DNA of 13,587 bases, taken from the NCBI GenBank assembly GCA_027604665.1, contig JADGIZ010000440.1, positions 1-13,587 of the forward strand. The letters are read 5' to 3'. The position numbers were made by a program, and so were the translations under genes. Of the stretch, positions 1 through 13,289 are shown one piece after another; the stretch's first letter is position 1, and each line of letters begins with the position of its first letter. Origin of the DNA: Polyrhizophydium stewartii. Taxonomy: Eukaryota; Chytridiomycota; Chytridiomycetes; Rhizophydiales. Below the pieces are notes generated by a model. The model was given only the letters and a program-made list of their open reading frames with translations. It was not told the DNA's origin and did no database searches.

Positions 1-53
1 GGGCAGCGGCAGCGGCCGGCGACGGCGGCCCGGGGGGGGGGGGCGGCGCGCCC

Positions 54-210: not shown

Positions 211-507
211 ATGCCCGAGGCCTTTCCGTGCAAGAGCAAGGCCTGCGCCGTGCAGGTGGGCCGGCACGCCTCGCCCGCGGCCCGACGGCCCCACCGCCGC
301 CCGCCGGCTGACCCGCGCCAGGCGTGCATGTCCCGCGCCGCCAGCACCGGCCTGGCGTGCGACGCCGTCGTCGAGGCCTTCGAGCAGTGCTGCCGCAACG
401 CCCGCGACCGCAAGCTGCCCGGCGCCGAGACCGCCTGCCTGTCCCTCTGGCGGCGCTGGGACCGGCAGGCCGCAGCAGCAGCCGCACGGCCAGCATCCCT
501 CAAATAA
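211..507 (+). CDS. CMC4: CMC4, twin CX9C mitochondrial intermembrane-space protein
   Basis: Two exons, 211-255 and 322-507, encode 76 residues, close to the roughly 70 usual for CMC4 (human p8-MTCP1 family). The cysteine pattern fits the family: C7-x4-C12-x4-C17-x10-C28-x9-C38-C39 and a later C54. The C12-x4-C17 spacing is restored only when the 66-nt intron 256-321 is removed. That intron has GT...AG ends and CTGAC ten bases before the acceptor. The start is MPEAFPC at 211, matching the family start MPxxxPC. Such proteins are oxidised by Mia40 in the intermembrane space and form a helical hairpin held by disulfides; CMC4's own role is poorly defined. The intron is a multiple of three with no stop, so an unspliced message would still be translated with 22 extra residues splitting the first cysteine group. 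Confidence 0.85.
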   Translation: MPEAFPCKSKACAVQVGRHASPAARRPHRRPPADPRQACMSRAASTGLACDAVVEAFEQCCRNARDRKLPGAETACLSLWRRWDRQAAAAAARPASLK

Positions 508-3066: not shown

Positions 3067-6000
3067 ATGTCGCTGACTTCCTCACGGCTACCTCCGCCTC
3101 TCGCCATCAGGCGTTCATACCCGATGGCCGACGCAACGCCATCGAGGAGGCCGCCCTCCGTGGCGCAGGCTCGGATTGAATCTGCAGTCGGGCCGCTTGA
3201 TCTCCAACGTCTCGCCTCTGGCTGCACGGCTCGCTGTTGCGATGCAGCGCTGGATCGTGCCCCGCTCGAGCCGTTCAAGATCTGCGCTTACTGCGCCGGC
3301 CACATTGCCTCTCGCGCATTTGGCGCCAGGCCGGCAGGCGATCTGCCGACGCCGAGTCAGACTCCAAGCAGCAGCCCGACAAAGCATCTGTGCCACGGGC
3401 CTCCCGACCATGGCGACAGGCAAGCGAAATCCGCGCCAGTCGATCTGCAGGATCTGCTACTCCCTGTGCAGGCATCGACAACCCCACGAGTTCAAGCTGC
3501 TTCTTCAAAGGCCCCCGAGTCAGGGCCACGCAAGCGCAAGCGAGCCAAGCCAATTGGAGTCCTCGAGAATACGACAGAGAATCGTGGAATGGTCAAGGCC
3601 AGCGAGCCCGACGATCCCTGCACCGACACAAATCCAACTTCATCCAAACCCGCGCCAGCCACATCCGCCAGTCCACTCACCGACCTTGGGCGTCCAGCTC
3701 TTGTGGCCTTGCCTTCCAGCTCTGCGCCAGACAACACCCTCATCGGCTCAGCTGCCTCCTGCACCATGCATCCGCCGTCTCCAGAAGCAGCGTCGTGTGC
3801 TCCCGTTGTTTGCAACACAACCGGAGGCGAGAGAGCCGCTGCTGCCGATCCAGCAACTCCCGATACACCAGGTGAGCAGTCGCTGGTATCTTGCGGCAAG
3901 CAACGGCGCTGCGTTGCCGCACAGACCCATGCTCGCCTCGCTGTTGACGCAAGCTCGGCAGCTATCGATCCGCCAAAGCGCAAGCGCGGCAGACCAAAGG
4001 GAACCACCCGAGCCTTCTTGGAGGCTCGCAGGCAGGCCGCCTTGCTGCAGCTATCCAGTGCGCCAGAAACCAGCTCCCTCGTCGCAGCGTCCACTGGCGG
4101 CGCCGTCTCGCAGACAAGGACGTCGCCCGTCGACAAAAACGCGGAGCCGGTCGCCAAGCAACACGGCGCAACCGAGAACGCGGCCACCCACGATACGAGC
4201 GGCGATGACGACGGACGCCCGCGACAGCGCCTCCGGCATGAGTCACCCGTTCGTGGCGACGCTGCCAAATATGGCGCCTCGCTCACGTCTGGGATGCCCT
4301 CGAACCAGGAGCTGCCACCGGCTCTGCGTGACGACGGTCTTGAGCACGATGCGTGCTGCACGACGGGCTCCCAAGAACCCCTCATCCCAGACAACGCTCC
4401 CAAACGCGGTCGTGGCAGGCCCAAAGGTGCGATCCAGCGCAAGTTCATCTCGACCGCGAGTGGCCCGTGGCACGAAGACGTCGACATCCGCGAGCTGCTC
4501 GAGCAGCGCCAGCGCGAGCACGAGGAGCAGCGTCGGCAGCGCAGGTTTGACGAGATCCAGTTCCAAAAGTACCATTTGGAGCAGCAGCAGCAGCAGAATC
4601 AGCAACAGCAGCAACAGCAACAACGGCCCTCTCAAGAACAGGAAACACCAGTCAAGCGCGGCCGCGGCCGACCGAAAGGCGCGCCGAACAAGCCGCATTT
4701 ACAGCACGTTGTCGACATTGCCGACAACCGCGTCTTCCCAACACGTCGCGCTCTCGCCACAATGGTCGAGATCCAGCCCGACTTGGTCATTGGCGGGCTG
4801 CTCGTTGGAACCGAGGTCGAGTTTCTCGACGCGGCATACACGTACTGGCGAGGCCGAGTCGCCGAGGCACGAGGTAACAAGCGCCGCATCACATTCCAGG
4901 ACAGCAACAGCAAGCGCGACGAGTGGCTCGATTGGGAGTCTCGCCGGATCCGCCTTGTTCGCATCGCGCCAGTGCGCCGGCGCTTGAGTGACACCGATGT
5001 CGACACCGACGACGAAGATATCGTCGGCGGCGGCCGAACCGAAGCCAACGATATCGGTTCGTTATCTTGTTCGATAACAGCATCCAATGCGGCTCAGACA
5101 AGCGCCAGGGATGTGTCCGCAGTCGGTCATCACGCACGAGCCTCCAAAACGCCCGCTTCACGCAGACCGGCACTCTTTGGCTTGGAGGACACTGGTATTG
5201 AGCCGCCAGAGGCCGTGTGCGTGGTGTGCATGAACGAAGAGGCCGAAGAGGTGCGCATCTGCGCGCTTGTGCTGCTTTCAGCGTATTCATGGCAATCCGC
5301 TGATATGGCAAATCAGGACAACCAACTGGTTGCTTGCTTTGAGTGCAGCAAGGCATATCACCAGCGCTGCCACACCCCGCGAATCCACGCTTCGGTGCTT
5401 CAGATTGCCGACAGCCCATGGATCTGTGCCGACAAGCGATGTCAGGAGCGCCCGGGTCGCAACAAGCAGCCCAGCGCATCCAGCACAATCGAGTCGCATG
5501 CCCTCGTTTTGAACCGCATCAGCGTGCGCGCTGAAGCGTCTGTTTTGCCGGCCCGAAGCCAAGAGGCCGACGATCCAAATGTGTACGAGTACGAGCCTCT
5601 GCGCCGCGTGTTTGTGCACGACGGCAACGGCCGATGGTGGAAGGGCCGGATGATCGAGTTCAACAACCACAACCGCGTGCTCGTCCGGTACGACGAGTGG
5701 GGCTTCCGCTTTGACGAGTGGGTGGAGCTCGGCAGCACGCGTATTCGATTGATGCCGCCCGACGAGACCGTCGCGGGGCATGACCAGGCATCCGCATCGG
5801 AAAGCGCATCGTCGCCAAGCCTCCACGTGCAACAGGGAACAGCAGCGCAGAGCAGAGTGTCGTTGTCAATCACCGCGGGCGAGTCTGCCGAACCCTCATC
5901 TCTCAAGAATGCGGAGCTCAGCGGTGCGGCTCAGCGCGCAGACCTGTCCATCGAGTTGGCACCGGCAGGAAAGATCACTGTAGTCGAGGAGCAGTCGCAT

Positions 6001-9000
6001 GCCGGCACGCAAGCGAACCCAAAGCCCCGCGCTCGTCGCCCCAAAACCACCTCACGCACAGCACCACACAAGGCCGCTCTAGCTCCAGTCCCAGCGCAGC
6101 CTGTACCGACGCCTGCATCAGAACCCGAAGTCGAAGTCGATCTCGAGAACGAGACTTGGAAGATATTCTGCAACCAGTGCAAGCAGCGCATACTGCAGTA
6201 CCGGTTAGTCGCCTGCCTGCTGATGCCATAACGGCGTCACGCGAAAAGTCGGTGCTGACACGGACACAGATATTACTGCACGTACTGCGAGACGCCGTCC
6301 GAGGGCTGGGAGTATGAGTCCTTTGACTTGTGCGCGCTATGCTTCCAGTGCAACTTCCCGTTCCACCGCCACCCGCGCTCGTCGTTTGCTGTTCAGGCCA
6401 TCATGGAGCACCTTCCGTCGGGGCGGCAGCGGTTACCGTGCGAGCTCGGCGGCAAGTTTGTGACGACGTTTGAGCTCGACTACTTTGACCTGGACTACTA
6501 CGGAGCCGGCGGCCCCGAGAGCATGACACTCGCCGAGGCGGCAGCGATGCACGCGCGTGCCGACGACATCGAGATGCTCACGAGCGCACCGCAGCAGCCA
6601 AGATCAATGCGCCTGTTCTCGACGAGAGGACTGCCAAGGATGTGCGCCTTCTGCAACAGCGAATCCGAGGAGCGCAGTCCGTTTGTCGGTCCGTTCCCGT
6701 TTCTTGCGTGGCCGCGGCCCAAAGCAACCGCAGGCGGCAGTTCTGCAGCAGAATCCGCATCCGAGCAAGGAGCGCAGGACACCATATCACGAGCAGATCC
6801 AGTGGTCGCGAAGCCGCGGGAATCGAGCCGTGCTCCCAACAAGAAGAGGCGCAAGAAGATCTTTTGGGCTCACGAGACTTGCGCAAAGTTCACGCCCGAG
6901 GTTTATGTGTCGCCAGACACGGGCGAGTGGTATAACGTGCTGCGTGCGCTGCGGCGTGCCCGCAACATGCGGTGCTTCGCGTGCAAGGAGCGCGGCGCCA
7001 CGGTAAGTCTTGCGTGCGATGGATGCCGGCTTGCCTGATTGAGGTCGCTCATCTCTTGTGTGCCAGATCGGGTGCTTCCATTCAAAGTGCTACAGGAGTT
7101 TTCACATCATGTGCACCAACAAGCCCGACCTATACTTTGAAAAGGGTGGCATCTTCTGGTGCCCCGCGCACGAGGCGTACATCAACCATCTTGGTCAGCA
7201 GCCATTTGATCCAACGACTATCCGGTGGCTGGCTGCTGACATACGATGTAGACGACTACGATGACGTCTATTCGTGCGATGTATGCTCCGTGACGCTCGG
7301 CCAAGGCGCCAACGAGGGCGTGCCGTGGTTCACATGCGGCCCGTGCAGCGAGGACTACTTTTCGTCGTTTGACCTGTGTGCTCTGTGCTTTGACGGGGCG
7401 TTTCCCCATGGAACGCACAAGCATCCGCGCGAGGACTTTGTGCAAACCAGTGCGTATGAACTGCTTGCCTGCCTGCCTGATTGATGGGGTCGGTCGAGCT
7501 TACAGATGCTGTACTTAGCGTTTGCCGAGCGGCACGACGAGGCGGTGCGCGAGCGCGAAAAGTTCCAGTCGATCGCGCAGCAGGAGCAAGGTGGCCCATG
7601 TGCCGGCTGCGTGGACCTGCAAGACTTTTTGTTGGCTGACTGCTACGCAGCCTCAGAGAGCGAGGCGGTTGCAAAGGTCAGGCGCAAGCTGCGTCCGATG
7701 GAAGTCGAGCGATCTCGCAACAAGAGCAGGACCGATATGGCCGTGCCAACATGCGCATACTGCTGGTCCGTGTGCGGCCCAGATGCCTACCGAGGTTTGT
7801 CTCCTGTATTCAACAAGTGCGCTGTTACCAGGATGAAGCCTGACCTTGCCTGCGTTTAGGGTACAACGGGCTGTTTATGTGCAAGGACTGCTTCTTGCTT
7901 GCTCCACGGTCGATCCGCATTGACATCAACTCGGACGCGCTGCACGAGGCCCTCGGCGCGCCATTCGAGGCAGCTCGCCGCTCGACCACCAAAACACCGT
8001 TTGGAACCCTGCGCATTGAAGCCGCCCCAGAGCGCCGCATGATTGAGGCATCCACTGCATTCTCACATACCCGTTTAGAGACGAGCAGCGCCGTTGCTCG
8101 CATGGGCTCAAGGTTCCGCTTTCCATTTTTGACGATGACGGAGATGATCGCTATGGCTAGAGCAGGCCCGGAGCAACCCATCGGCCCCGCTTCGGTCGAA
8201 ATGATCGAGTTGGCGGAGATGAGCAGCTTCAACTACGACGCGTACCTGACGCGACACGCAGCGCGGCGTCCTATCGAGGAAGCCAAGATGCAGATCCGCC
8301 CAAAGCTGCTCACTTCGTATGGCCCGCAGGACGACCAGCTCTTCTCGCTCTTCTACGACACGACCTACTACGACATTCCGGGTCGTGCACCTCGCTGGGC
8401 CACACACTCGGGTGGTGACTACCACGGCACCTGGCTGCCACAGCTTGTGCGCTGGTCGCTGCTGCGATACACGGAGCGAGGCGACCGCGTGCTGTCCAAT
8501 TTCTTAGGCCGCGGTACGGACTCCATCGAGTCCTTCCTGCTCGAGAGACGGTGCTGTGGCGTGGACATCAATCCTGTAGGACCGCGCTTGGCGATGTCAG
8601 CCCGGTCACTGTGAATCGCGGCTCTGACATTTGCATCACTGGTGTGTATGCTCAAAGGTCGCGGTGGCGTTATCACAGCGCAACGCAGCGTTTCTCCTCC
8701 CACACGACATGCGTATTTCGGCCGTATTCCGTCCGATCCTCGTACACGGCGATTCACGCTGCCTACGCGGCCCGCTCTTTGAGAGCGAGAGCTACCAGCA
8801 CATCTTGTGAGTAGCTGCGTTGGTGCGCTAGCGCACCACTCAGTCTGACTGCGACACAGATCGCATCCGCCGTACAAAGACTGTGTTTCGTACAGCTCGT
8901 TCATCGACGGCGACTTGTCTCGACTGCCGGAAATGGACGATTTCCAGGCCGAGATGAGGAAGGTTGCGATCGAGTCCCATCGGTGCGTGTGGCAAAGATG

Positions 9001-9476
9001 ACAAAAATTCCATGTGTGCTGCACCAATGCTAACACGGGAACACGCGCAGGCTGCTCAAATGGGGAGGGTGTGGGCATCGCGAGCCTTGGGCGGGCTGCG
9101 TACGCGGTTGCTAATACTCGCCGCAGGCGCGTCACGCTTGGTGTGGGAGACAACCGCCGCGAGTGCCTGTACCAGCCCGTGACGTTCAAAACTCTGCGGA
9201 CGTACATGGAATCCGGATTCGAGATTGAGGAGCTGGTACGTTGCTCATTGCACGAGGCAACTTCTGCGCCATGTCGGAGTGATTGACAAGCCGAAATGTG
9301 CGCGTTGACTGCGACCAAAGATCCTCAAACGCCAGCGACACTGTCAGATGGCGCCACTGGGGTCGTACCTGTCCATCCTGCACGATTTTCTGATGTTCAC
9401 ACACGAGTTTGTTTGCGTCCTGCGCAAAACCTGGGCACCGCCCAAATTTGCGACGACCGATGGTGGTGCTCGCTAG
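3067..9476 (+). CDS. Multidomain chromatin-reader / bacterial-type DNA amino-methyltransferase fusion
   Basis: Twelve exons join in frame: 3067-5250, 5317-6203, 6270-7002, 7067-7193, 7252-7439, 7506-7794, 7860-8575, 8658-8806, 8860-8982, 9051-9068, 9127-9235 and 9321-9476. They total 5679 nt (1892 residues). Domains in order: a basic KRKRAKP patch (about 155); AT-hook cores RGRP at 307, 449 and 533; poly-Q 506-519; Tudor-like 578-635; PHD finger C718-C770 with perfect C4HC3 spacing; second Tudor-like 815-878 (RWWKGRM...VLVRYDEW...RFDEW); ZZ finger from C1013; extended PHD 1149-1303 ending WCPAH; second ZZ from C1319; CX2CX17CX2C GATA-spaced finger C1456-C1480. The C-terminal methyltransferase (about 1650-1885) has DYHGTWLPQ, motif I FLGRGT (1684), acidic DINP (1705), HGDSR (1738), HPPY (1760) and LLKWGGRVTLGVGDNRR (1800). 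SAM binding precedes catalysis, as in alpha/gamma-type amino-methyltransferases, and nothing resembling a target-recognition domain follows. Expected role (inference): N4-cytosine or N6-adenine methylation of DNA at sites chosen by histone readers. The 5' end is uncertain: ATG 3067 has a better Kozak context, ATG 3124 is the alternative, and upstream exons are possible. Confidence 0.85.
4582..4623 (+). repeat. CAG/CAA poly-glutamine tract
   Basis: This mixed CAG/CAA run encodes about 13 Gln with one Asn between the third and fourth AT-hooks of the methyltransferase fusion. It follows a charged helical stretch rich in Arg, Glu and Gln, so this linker is probably a coiled coil that grades into poly-Q. 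Confidence 0.85.
9051..9068 (+). other. 18-nt microexon of the methyltransferase gene
   Basis: This exon is flanked by introns 8983-9050 (68 nt, CTAAC branch motif) and 9069-9126 (58 nt, CTAAT). It encodes LLKWG plus the outer bases of the flanking Arg and Gly codons. It restores LLKWGGRVTLGVGDNRR, equivalent to the LKPGG-strand segment of amino-methyltransferases. Without it the frame is kept but the conserved turn is lost. Confidence 0.75.
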
Positions 9477-11930: not shown

Positions 11931-13182
11931 TCATGCTTGAGCGTGTTGTTGTTGTTGAGGCCGCAAGTACAGCTGGCCGTCTTCCCTGAGGGTCATGCCT
12001 TGTGCATCAACTTTCAGAGGCTGGCGCAAGTAGAATATGGCGCGCAAGAGCATGTTGATGCACGCGTTCTTATCGGGGAACCAGATGGTGTCGCAGTGGC
12101 CGCATTTGCGGACGCCCCAGGGCATGAGCAGGTTCTTGGCGTCGTAATTCTTGGCGACCATGCGATCGGCGCCTTTGAGCTGCGGCATGACTGATACAGG
12201 CGGCGGCCGAGACAGCTTGCGGTCGCCAGGGCGAGGTGGCTGCCTCTTGCGGTTGGTCTGCTGGCGGGCCGCGTTGGCACCGCTGCCTGGAGCATGAGGA
12301 GGAGCAAGTGTCAGTTGCATGTATGGCGCGAGAAGGCGATGTGACACCGACCACTGGATCCATTGCCATCCATGGGTGCGGGTGCAGAGGCGGCATCTGC
12401 ACATGAGCCGAGTGTGTCAGCACCGAGACGCAGCAGAGACGATGCGATGCGAGGACATCACCTTGTGCGGCAGCCTGCAAGGCAGCAGTGAGAGCCCCCT
12501 CCAGGCGAGCTGCGACTTTGGATGTGGCCTCGCTCCGGGCGAACTTGATGGCCATGTCCGCTTCGTCCTGCGTGATCGGCAGGGGCCGCGGCAGGATGCT
12601 GAGGGGGACGGCCTGCTGATTATCCGGCTGGATGTGCTTGCGGGCGAGCCTGACCAGTAAATGGGCCTTTCGCTTGATCTGCCTGTCCTGCTTGCTCCAT
12701 GCCCGGGCCTTGAGCTCAACCTCGGTCGGCGGCAGCTGCTTGTGCAGCACCGCCTGCTGCATCTCCTTGCCGCAAGACGAGCAGCACTTGCTTGTGCGGT
12801 GCTCCTTGATCCAGCAGACCGTCTCGCCCTGCCGCCAGAGAGCATTGAACAGCGGCATGGCCGTGGGCATCGTAATATGGCCGCGCGAGTTATGTTTGAA
12901 ATCGCCGTCGCCAATGACAAAGAGAATGCGCGAGGTTGGCTGCACAACAAGGCGGTCAGCACGCATGCTGCACACAAGCGCCACATGCACACAACTCACT
13001 GGACCGCCCTCGCTTTGTGTGGGCAGTCCCTTGCGCGGGTATTTGAGGCTCCATGCCGGCCGCTGCCGCTCGATCGAGTTGTAGATCCGGTCTTGGACAC
13101 GCGGCCACCTCGACCCCCCACCTATGTAGTATGGTCGATTCCCGATGACTAACGTCCTACGGACCGAAACTTCGACTTTCAT
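11931..13182 (-). CDS. Fanzor/TnpB-like protein, C-terminal half (RuvC-I half missing)
   Basis: Four minus-strand exons, 13182-13000, 12939-12462, 12396-12352 and 12286-11931, give 353 residues. Key motifs match eukaryotic TnpB homologues (Fanzors), which are RNA-guided RuvC nucleases of mobile elements. They are ILFVIGDGDFKHNSRGH (67-82), then IKEHRTSKCCSSCG (105-118, compare Fanzor DEYRTSKxCxxC), and RKCGHCDTIWFPDKNACINM (295-314), where D307 sits at the RuvC-III Asp and C297/C300 form the second zinc half-site. About 180 mostly charged residues separate the zinc half-sites, far more than usual. No RuvC-I Asp motif precedes: the N-terminus is only 66 residues, and a TAA lies in frame 12 bases before the ATG. 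The gene is therefore either a 5'-truncated copy or missing upstream exons, and unlikely to be a nuclease as read. The introns (60, 65 and 65 nt) are host-like with CTGAC motifs. I found no terminal inverted repeats. Confidence 0.7.
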
Positions 13183-13289
13183 TCTTGCTTCTTATCCTTC
13201 GGCCAACACAGAATCATGGTGCCGATCTCAACAGACCTCGATCAATGGCAGACACAGGCAAAATGCGATGCAAGTTGTAACACCAGTGT

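Follow-up and report, generated by a model that had tools for sequence, protein, structure and literature searches.

A chromatin-reader array fused to a prokaryotic-type HPPY amino-methyltransferase domain in a gene of the chytrid Polyrhizophydium stewartii

The window analyzed here, a 13,587-nt stretch of DNA that makes up contig C439 of the 690-contig, 12.86-Mb draft genome of Polyrhizophydium stewartii, carries a gene for a predicted 1891-residue protein in which putative chromatin-reader modules are followed by a C-terminal amino-methyltransferase domain of prokaryotic type. We interpret the protein as a captured restriction-modification (R-M) methylase turned into a chromatin-guided DNA amino-methyltransferase, most likely acting on adenine N6, and give this reading a probability of roughly 0.55. 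In the proposed mechanism, a compact HPPY R-M methyltransferase of linear motif order would have been captured long ago by a fungal lineage from a prokaryote and joined in frame to a series of modules that bind chromatin. AT-hooks and zinc fingers would hold DNA and nucleosomes, the PHD, extended PHD and Tudor/Agenet modules would pick histone states, and the C-terminal domain would flip a base and methylate its exocyclic amino group with AdoMet, adenine N6 being the most likely position and cytosine N4 a less likely one. Underlying this interpretation are a modeled exon chain, the homology of the methyltransferase, PHD, extended PHD and second Tudor modules, the retained catalytic motif and the R-M setting of prokaryotic relatives; expression, activity, base, target site and histone specificity are predictions drawn from sequence.

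That the reader array and the methyltransferase form one real fusion gene is confirmed at the sequence level. The exon chain proposed in a first-pass annotation of this DNA was rebuilt independently and gave a single frame that starts with the ATG at 3067 and stays open up to the TAG at 9474–9476, with 11 GT-AG introns of 53–85 nt each. Retention would close the frame for nine of the 11, the two exceptions being 5251–5316, which is in frame, and 7194–7251, which would shift the frame. At the exon 5/6 junction two splice pairs are acceptable, 7450–7518 (used here) or 7441–7505, with products that differ by a few residues. The joint between readers and writer lies within exon 7, unbroken from the second half of the GATA-spaced finger to the DINP motif, and since this finger is split by intron 7795–7859, exon 6 is tied to exon 7. 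Five introns lie inside the methyltransferase domain, and the prokaryotic profile aligns across all five. GC content at third codon positions (GC3) is 0.74 in the methylase part vs. 0.70 in the reader part, and the composition is host-like. The splice model might have joined two neighboring genes or a bacterial contaminant, as the chain is modeled from DNA, the assembly is a draft in 690 contigs and one splice pair is ambiguous. However, with five introns in the domain and the joint inside one open exon, contamination or merged genes are unlikely, and the finger spanning exons 6 and 7 and the matching composition make such an artifact more improbable still, to the point of being far-fetched. 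A bacterial contaminant contig was rejected on the basis of the methylase introns, the composition and the single-exon joint.

The identity of the C-terminal domain is supported by profile searches. A profile of 26 prokaryotic relatives matched the full protein with 194 bits (E 6e-59 among 502 sequences) over residues 1636–1878, which corrects the bounds of 1480–1892 given at first pass; the same search scored a more distant PF01555 methylase from Priestia at 104 bits, and none of 500 whole-protein shuffles matched at E ≤ 10. The comparison with N6_N4_Mtase (PF01555) that the first-pass annotation had proposed put the domain over the curated cut-off of 26.7 bits, both in the whole protein (28.5 bits) and for the domain alone (33.9 bits). 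PF05063 (MT-A70), PF00145 (C5) and PF02384 (MetB type) were not among the 10 Pfam families at E ≤ 1 in the whole protein, in agreement with the initial view that the domain is neither DNMT nor MT-A70. The motifs FLGRGT, DINP and HPPY are present as claimed, motifs I-II-III-IV run in linear rather than permuted order, and the central proposal of a reader array fused to a prokaryotic-type amino-methyltransferase is borne out by the clear prokaryotic relatives and the five introns.

These relatives form a compact prokaryotic HPPY methylase family, unnamed and defined here from sequence comparisons, to which the domain belongs, and which shares, in linear order, the motifs W-A-T-H, G-N-W-S-P, FxGxGT, DIN, G-D-A-R, HPPY, D-L-S, I-G-D, H-E and K. 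A tblastn search of the plasmid collection returned two records, the better being a Fusobacterium vincentii frame (33.5% identity over 80% of the query, E 3e-34). The Fusobacterium record at locus L001 (NZ_CP084075.1) is catalogued as a plasmid and has a single annotated feature, and its size of 2.1 Mb suggests a mislabeled chromosome. An alignment-based scan of the genome contig collection gave 31 loci, namely 28 full or near-full relatives and three weak partial ones; L031–L033 (partial matches, 25–28% identity) were left out of the family count, and L015, L023 and L027–L030 (frameshifted, cut or masked) out of the 26-row profile. Phylum surveys used alignment A3, nine rows including the window's own domain, at E ≤ 1e-30, and found matches in 66 of 400 genomes in Chloroflexota (the phylum of L022), 30 of 147 in WOR-3 (that of L020) and 21 of 294 in the phylum of L030, an Archaeoglobaceae archaeon; the starting genome is included in each count, and scoring was limited to the best candidates of each genome. 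Many of the matches, at about 110–190 bits, belong to a divergent clade. Its members L065 and L067–L072 have open frames of about 360–405 residues. In the Chloroflexota survey a genome usually had a single match, and this clade appears to be a conserved orphan methylase.

The best BLAST matches to the window domain are L101 (40.0% identity), L056 (39.8%) and L057 (39.5%), with L001 and L003 at 32–36% and the divergent clade and some 300-residue members at 27–31%. The nearest BLAST group (L057, L101, L073, L056) combines a helix-turn-helix (HTH) part, the methylase and a second methylase-like half. By eye and from weak second BLAST matches, the HPPY proteins of about 520 residues at L017–L022 and L024–L026 also carry an HTH-like part at the N-terminus and, in addition, a degenerate second half that resembles a methylase. 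Downstream of the methylase, many loci of the nearest group encode an unrelated, conserved protein of about 185 residues without a Pfam family (L017:4365-4922 and homologues); it occurs at 16 of the 103 context loci at E ≤ 1e-4, repeats included, mostly near HTH-type HPPY methylases, and is possibly an undescribed restriction endonuclease. Free-standing relatives measure about 231–260 residues, the shortest complete one 231, without room for a target-recognition domain, and the lack of such a domain is therefore ancestral rather than a result of fusion. The first-pass observation that none is visible stands, but not its idea that site choice was handed to the readers, as the compact relatives lack the room too.

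The genomic setting of the relatives points to R-M. Among 18 stand-alone loci (L001, L003–L016, L029, L034, L035), 17 have an adjoining D12 methylase and 14 a DpnII-type endonuclease; the only one without D12, L013, begins at a contig end. DpnII was found at 24 of the 103 loci scanned, two being repeats and eight being divergent loci (L050, L058, L079, L105, L107, L109, L110, L111) that add to the stand-alone cases. The 103 loci count contig repeats (L046, L047 and L049 repeat L036, L034 and L035; L054, L077 and L096 repeat L022, L030 and L020). The flanks scanned were short, about 1.5–5 kb, and therefore absence of neighbors is weak evidence. DpnII systems act on the adenine of GATC and have a second methylase by which single-stranded DNA is protected (PMC3573125; PMC12542736). 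Since relatives adjoin D12 and DpnII, the target is probably adenine N6 rather than cytosine N4, an argument that is indirect for the group nearest the window; this narrows the initial proposal of N4-methylcytosine (4mC) or N6-methyladenine (6mA) toward the latter. A 4mC writer, functionally parallel to the bdelloid rotifer enzyme N4CMT, could be considered instead, because PF01555 includes both activities, HPPY is not diagnostic of the base, and N4CMT, with SPPY, is an experimentally demonstrated 4mC case (PMC8885841). However, the company of adenine-methylating D12 enzymes and DpnII endonucleases speaks for adenine, and we consider a 4mC writer unlikely.

Several observations weigh against a chromatin-guided adenine methyltransferase. 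Neither D12 nor DpnII was found at any locus of the HTH group nearest the window, and without DpnII beside it, GATC/adenine is not proven for this group. Structurally, a prokaryotic relative comes closest to the Trm11/TrmN type of tRNA m2G methyltransferases, and therefore the fold alone is no proof of DNA as the substrate. The enzyme might on that account methylate RNA, perhaps nascent chromatin-bound RNA. However, structure aligners that keep chain order disfavor permuted DNA methylases, the family falls in the DNA-methylase family PF01555 (93.9 bits for the Fusobacterium member), relatives reside in R-M operons, and no THUMP domain appeared in the whole-protein Pfam scan, making an RNA substrate decidedly improbable.

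Catalytic competence is also in question. The window keeps 24 of the 31 columns that reach at least 97% conservation across 69 prokaryotic rows, including HPPY, GxGT and GD, and differs at seven (W1639Y, N1659T, D1681S, T1689D, I1765C, I1766V, W1854G). The motif-I Asp precedes FxGxGT in 68 of the 69 rows, and Ser1681 takes its place in the window. An alignment of 30 closer relatives has 71 columns that are conserved in 29 rows or more, and the window keeps 48 of these and changes 23. These changes could point to lost or altered activity, with the doubt arising mainly from the replacement of the motif-I Asp by Ser1681, though HPPY is intact; D1681S bears on activity, not on descent. It is conceivable that the domain is a pseudo-enzyme, a DNA- or partner-binding platform without catalysis, considering that D1681S, T1689D, N1659T and W1854G alter near-invariant positions, along with the 23 columns changed relative to closer relatives. 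Dead paralogues often show a decayed motif IV, whereas here HPPY, GxGT, DIN, GD and the C-terminal HE are all intact. A precedent for such a platform is Mta9 of the fungal MT-A70 complex, which a review describes as inactive beside active Mta1 (PMC13297926). On balance, a pseudo-enzyme also seems unlikely.

The trees likewise count against a firm reading, as the window sits at the tip of a very long branch, with 6.1, 2.1 and 4.4 changes per column in three trees, and has no starred sister. With the window on so long a branch, the trees point to no donor lineage. For the second tree, thinned at 80% identity from 96 to 70 rows, the program warned that long branches had been joined, those of the divergent nine-row clade and L033; the third tree omits both, and in it the rows nearest the window are of the HTH group. 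An old capture of the methylase fits the data, because GC3 of the writer and reader parts is close. Recent transfer is unlikely, with a best identity of about 40% and an end branch of 2.1–6.1 changes per column. A giant-virus origin is not supported; three scans of viral contigs gave 0, 3 and 7 loci (three of the seven on repeat contigs), on contigs of 10.5–60 kb, no eukaryotic fusion was seen among neighbors at the viral-contig loci L034–L036, and phage records gave no match to the domain.

Taken by type, the modules of the fused protein run from AT-hook-like motifs through Tudor/Agenet-like modules, PHD, extended PHD, two ZZ-like fingers and a GATA-spaced finger to the methyltransferase at the end (Table 1). 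Of the readers listed at first pass, the PHD, extended PHD and second Tudor have homologues; the AT-hooks, first Tudor, ZZ and GATA-spaced fingers are weak or recognized by eye. The extended PHD matches zf-HC5HC2H with 43.7 bits (cut-off 29.1, E 3e-11) over residues 1225–1302, its sister Pfam model with 42.6 bits (cut-off 27) and PHD_NSD with 27.7 bits (cut-off 23.9, best stretch 1257–1303); other matches are KMT2D (E 4e-7), NTO1 and BRPF1. The PHD (C4HC3) scores 23.2 bits against a cut-off of 24, 0.8 under, and matches MTF2 at E 3e-11. The second Tudor matches the PHF20L1 Tudor (E 5e-4) and, as a fragment, Agenet (24.8 bits vs. cut-off 27, E 3e-5); its model is a five-stranded barrel with pLDDT 80 and weak fold matches. 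In the whole protein, Agenet (24.2 vs. 27) and MBT (20.6 vs. 22) fall just under their cut-offs, and AT_hook is not among the families; a fragment with AT-hook-like motifs 2 and 3 gave AT_hook 16.1 bits (cut-off 17.4) in two stretches. The ZZ-like fingers scored 12.5 bits (E 0.14) and 14.3 bits (E 0.036) against PF00569 (cut-off 21.4). The GATA-spaced finger has no Pfam match to the GATA family and shares its spacing only. No HP1-type chromodomain was found in the Pfam and reader-module searches of the fused protein. Contrary to the first-pass description, the zinc arrays do not sit directly against the catalytic domain, since about 155 residues separate it from the last finger.

Table 1. Features of the fusion gene (window coordinates).
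Feature	Residues	Position	Strand	Remarks
Whole gene	1891 residues	3067..9476	+	12 exons; GT-AG splice model, known from DNA alone
Exons 1-6		3067-5250, 5317-6203, 6270-7002, 7067-7193, 7252-7449, 7519-7794	+	splice model
Exons 7-12		7860-8575, 8658-8806, 8860-8982, 9051-9068, 9127-9235, 9321-9476	+	splice model
AT-hook-like motif 1, PKRKRGRPKG	303-312	3973..4002	+	seen in sequence
AT-hook-like motif 2	444-454	4396..4428	+	Pfam AT_hook below cut-off
AT-hook-like motif 3	529-538	4651..4680	+	Pfam AT_hook below cut-off
Tudor/MBT-like module 1	~576-632	4792..4962	+	weak: MBT E 0.009, Agenet E 0.03, both below cut-off
PHD finger	718-766	5218..5430	+	split by intron 5251-5316
Tudor/Agenet-like module 2	819-876	5587..5760	+	Agenet below cut-off; PHF20L1
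ZZ-like zinc finger 1	1013-1060	6169..6378	+	Cys/His pattern by eye
Extended PHD	1148-1303	6640..7171	+	zf-HC5HC2H above cut-off
ZZ-like zinc finger 2	1318-1372	7272..7436	+	pattern by eye
GATA-spaced C-X2-C-X17-C-X2-C finger	1455-1479	7752..7891	+	by eye; split by intron 7795-7859
HPPY-type amino-methyltransferase domain	1636-1878	8360..9434	+	prokaryotic profile; PF01555
Motif I FLGRGT (AdoMet binding)	1683-1688	8501..8518	+	preceding Asp is Ser1681
Motif II DINP	1704-1707	8564..8575	+	
Motif IV HPPY (catalytic)	1759-1762	8864..8875	+	intact; conservation of at least 97% across 69 prokaryotic rows

Elsewhere in the host genome, a protein query with the fused domain matched this locus only, in a six-frame, exon-wise search of a draft that can miss genes. 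A PF01555 family search of the genome gave no match even for this gene, probably because it is split by introns, and the result is no evidence of absence. MT-A70 was found at three places, on contigs C12, C13 and C5 (L042–L044), which by eye we take to be AMT1-, METTL4- and AMT6/7- or MTA9-type; the sequences suggest that AMT1-type 6mA machinery coexists with the fused enzyme. Because the single PF00145 match (C321:14087-14455) looks DNMT2-like by eye, canonical 5-methylcytosine (5mC) methylases may be absent. Chitin synthase (PF03142) was found on four contigs (best E 4e-198, 661 bits) and was also over the cut-off in 4 of 14 control genomes, all bacterial; chitin synthases occur in other eukaryotes besides fungi, so the matches agree with a fungal host but do not prove it.

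Eight neighboring frames of the window gave one Pfam family, CMC4, under its cut-off (25.4 bits vs. 28.9), in a Cx9C mitochondrial-protein-like frame at 211–507 (+). An open frame at 12070–13191 (−), with a C-X2-C zinc motif (SKCCSSCGKEM) and acidic motifs, is Fanzor/TnpB-like by eye and has no Pfam family at E ≤ 0.01.

The available text of a 2026 review on DNA methylation in fungi credits 6mA writing to MT-A70 and MetB and does not mention '4mC' (PMC13297926), and that of a 2025 survey of 6mA writers centers on MT-A70 (PMC12695648). Neither an HPPY-family enzyme nor a multi-reader fusion is described in the available portions of the N4CMT, MetB, Marchantia, 6mA-writer and fungal-methylation literature cited here. 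No described case of such a fusion was found among the matches listed in literature searches, a prior description being possible, nor did the literal motif HPPY occur in the papers listed for it. Relatives of the fused protein may exist in other fungi, our searches having covered prokaryotic, plasmid, viral and phage collections and the host's own genome.

Among known systems, the prokaryotic HPPY methylases of DpnII operons (L001:3926-4660, L003) share the same domain, but are stand-alone or HTH-fused, with no eukaryotic modules seen. DpnA has a permuted motif order, with motif IV first and DPPY, in contrast to the linear HPPY domain of the window, and the 5hek and 5hfj 'DpnA' chains match the A2 profile over motif I only. 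DpnA (M2.DpnII) is nevertheless comparable as the second methylase of DpnII systems, methylating single-stranded DNA at GATC (PMC3573125). DpnA and the HPPY methylases occupy an analogous position in these systems, and orthology is not claimed. On the reader side, the Polycomb-like proteins MTF2/PHF1 have the PHD closest to that of the window and also a Tudor near it, but no methylase, and the order and number of modules differ.

Bacterial-derived amino-methylases occur in other eukaryotes too; the closest precedents, rotifer N4CMT and fungal MetB, belong to different enzyme families. In Marchantia, a 4mC methyltransferase is a bacterial amino-methylase acquired by a eukaryote (cited in PMC12344493). 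MetB, which combines PF02384 with a target-recognition domain and is the main writer of asymmetric 6mA in Mucor, is likewise a bacterial-derived amino-methylase in early-diverging fungi; however, it is a Type I/IIL-like N6_Mtase with its own target-recognition domain, and chromatin readers are not described for it in the available text (PMC11258239). N4CMT, which the first-pass annotation named as the nearest precedent, also derives from a bacterial N6_N4_Mtase that a eukaryote captured and joined to a methyl-lysine reader, and its host lacks canonical C5 methylases (PMC8885841); in the present genome the only PF00145 match looks DNMT2-like.

We tentatively propose, at somewhat less than even odds, that a DpnII-operon-type HPPY methylase was domesticated and wired to a combinatorial histone-reading array, writing 6mA (or 4mC) at marks read by the PHD, extended PHD and Tudor modules, in a lineage that seems to lack canonical 5mC methylases. 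This would be a further independent DNA amino-methylation system of bacterial origin besides rotifer N4CMT, Marchantia and fungal MetB. Enzymes of bacterial origin that read histones and write DNA are known from very few eukaryotes; if the proposal is true, a further enzyme family employed in this way, in a fungus-like genome and with a far larger set of readers, would indicate that eukaryotes repeatedly recruited R-M methylases into chromatin. Early-diverging fungi, in which 6mA is abundant and attributed to MT-A70 and MetB, would gain a further candidate writer, and the fusion allows a direct test of which histone mark predicts which methylated base. N4CMT is of the permuted beta subtype, with SPPY and a single C-terminal HP1-type chromodomain, in an animal host (PMC8885841), whereas the present protein is linear, with HPPY and several N-terminal readers, in a fungal host. 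Judged by sequence, the fused protein is like N4CMT in outline and is not of the N4CMT family.

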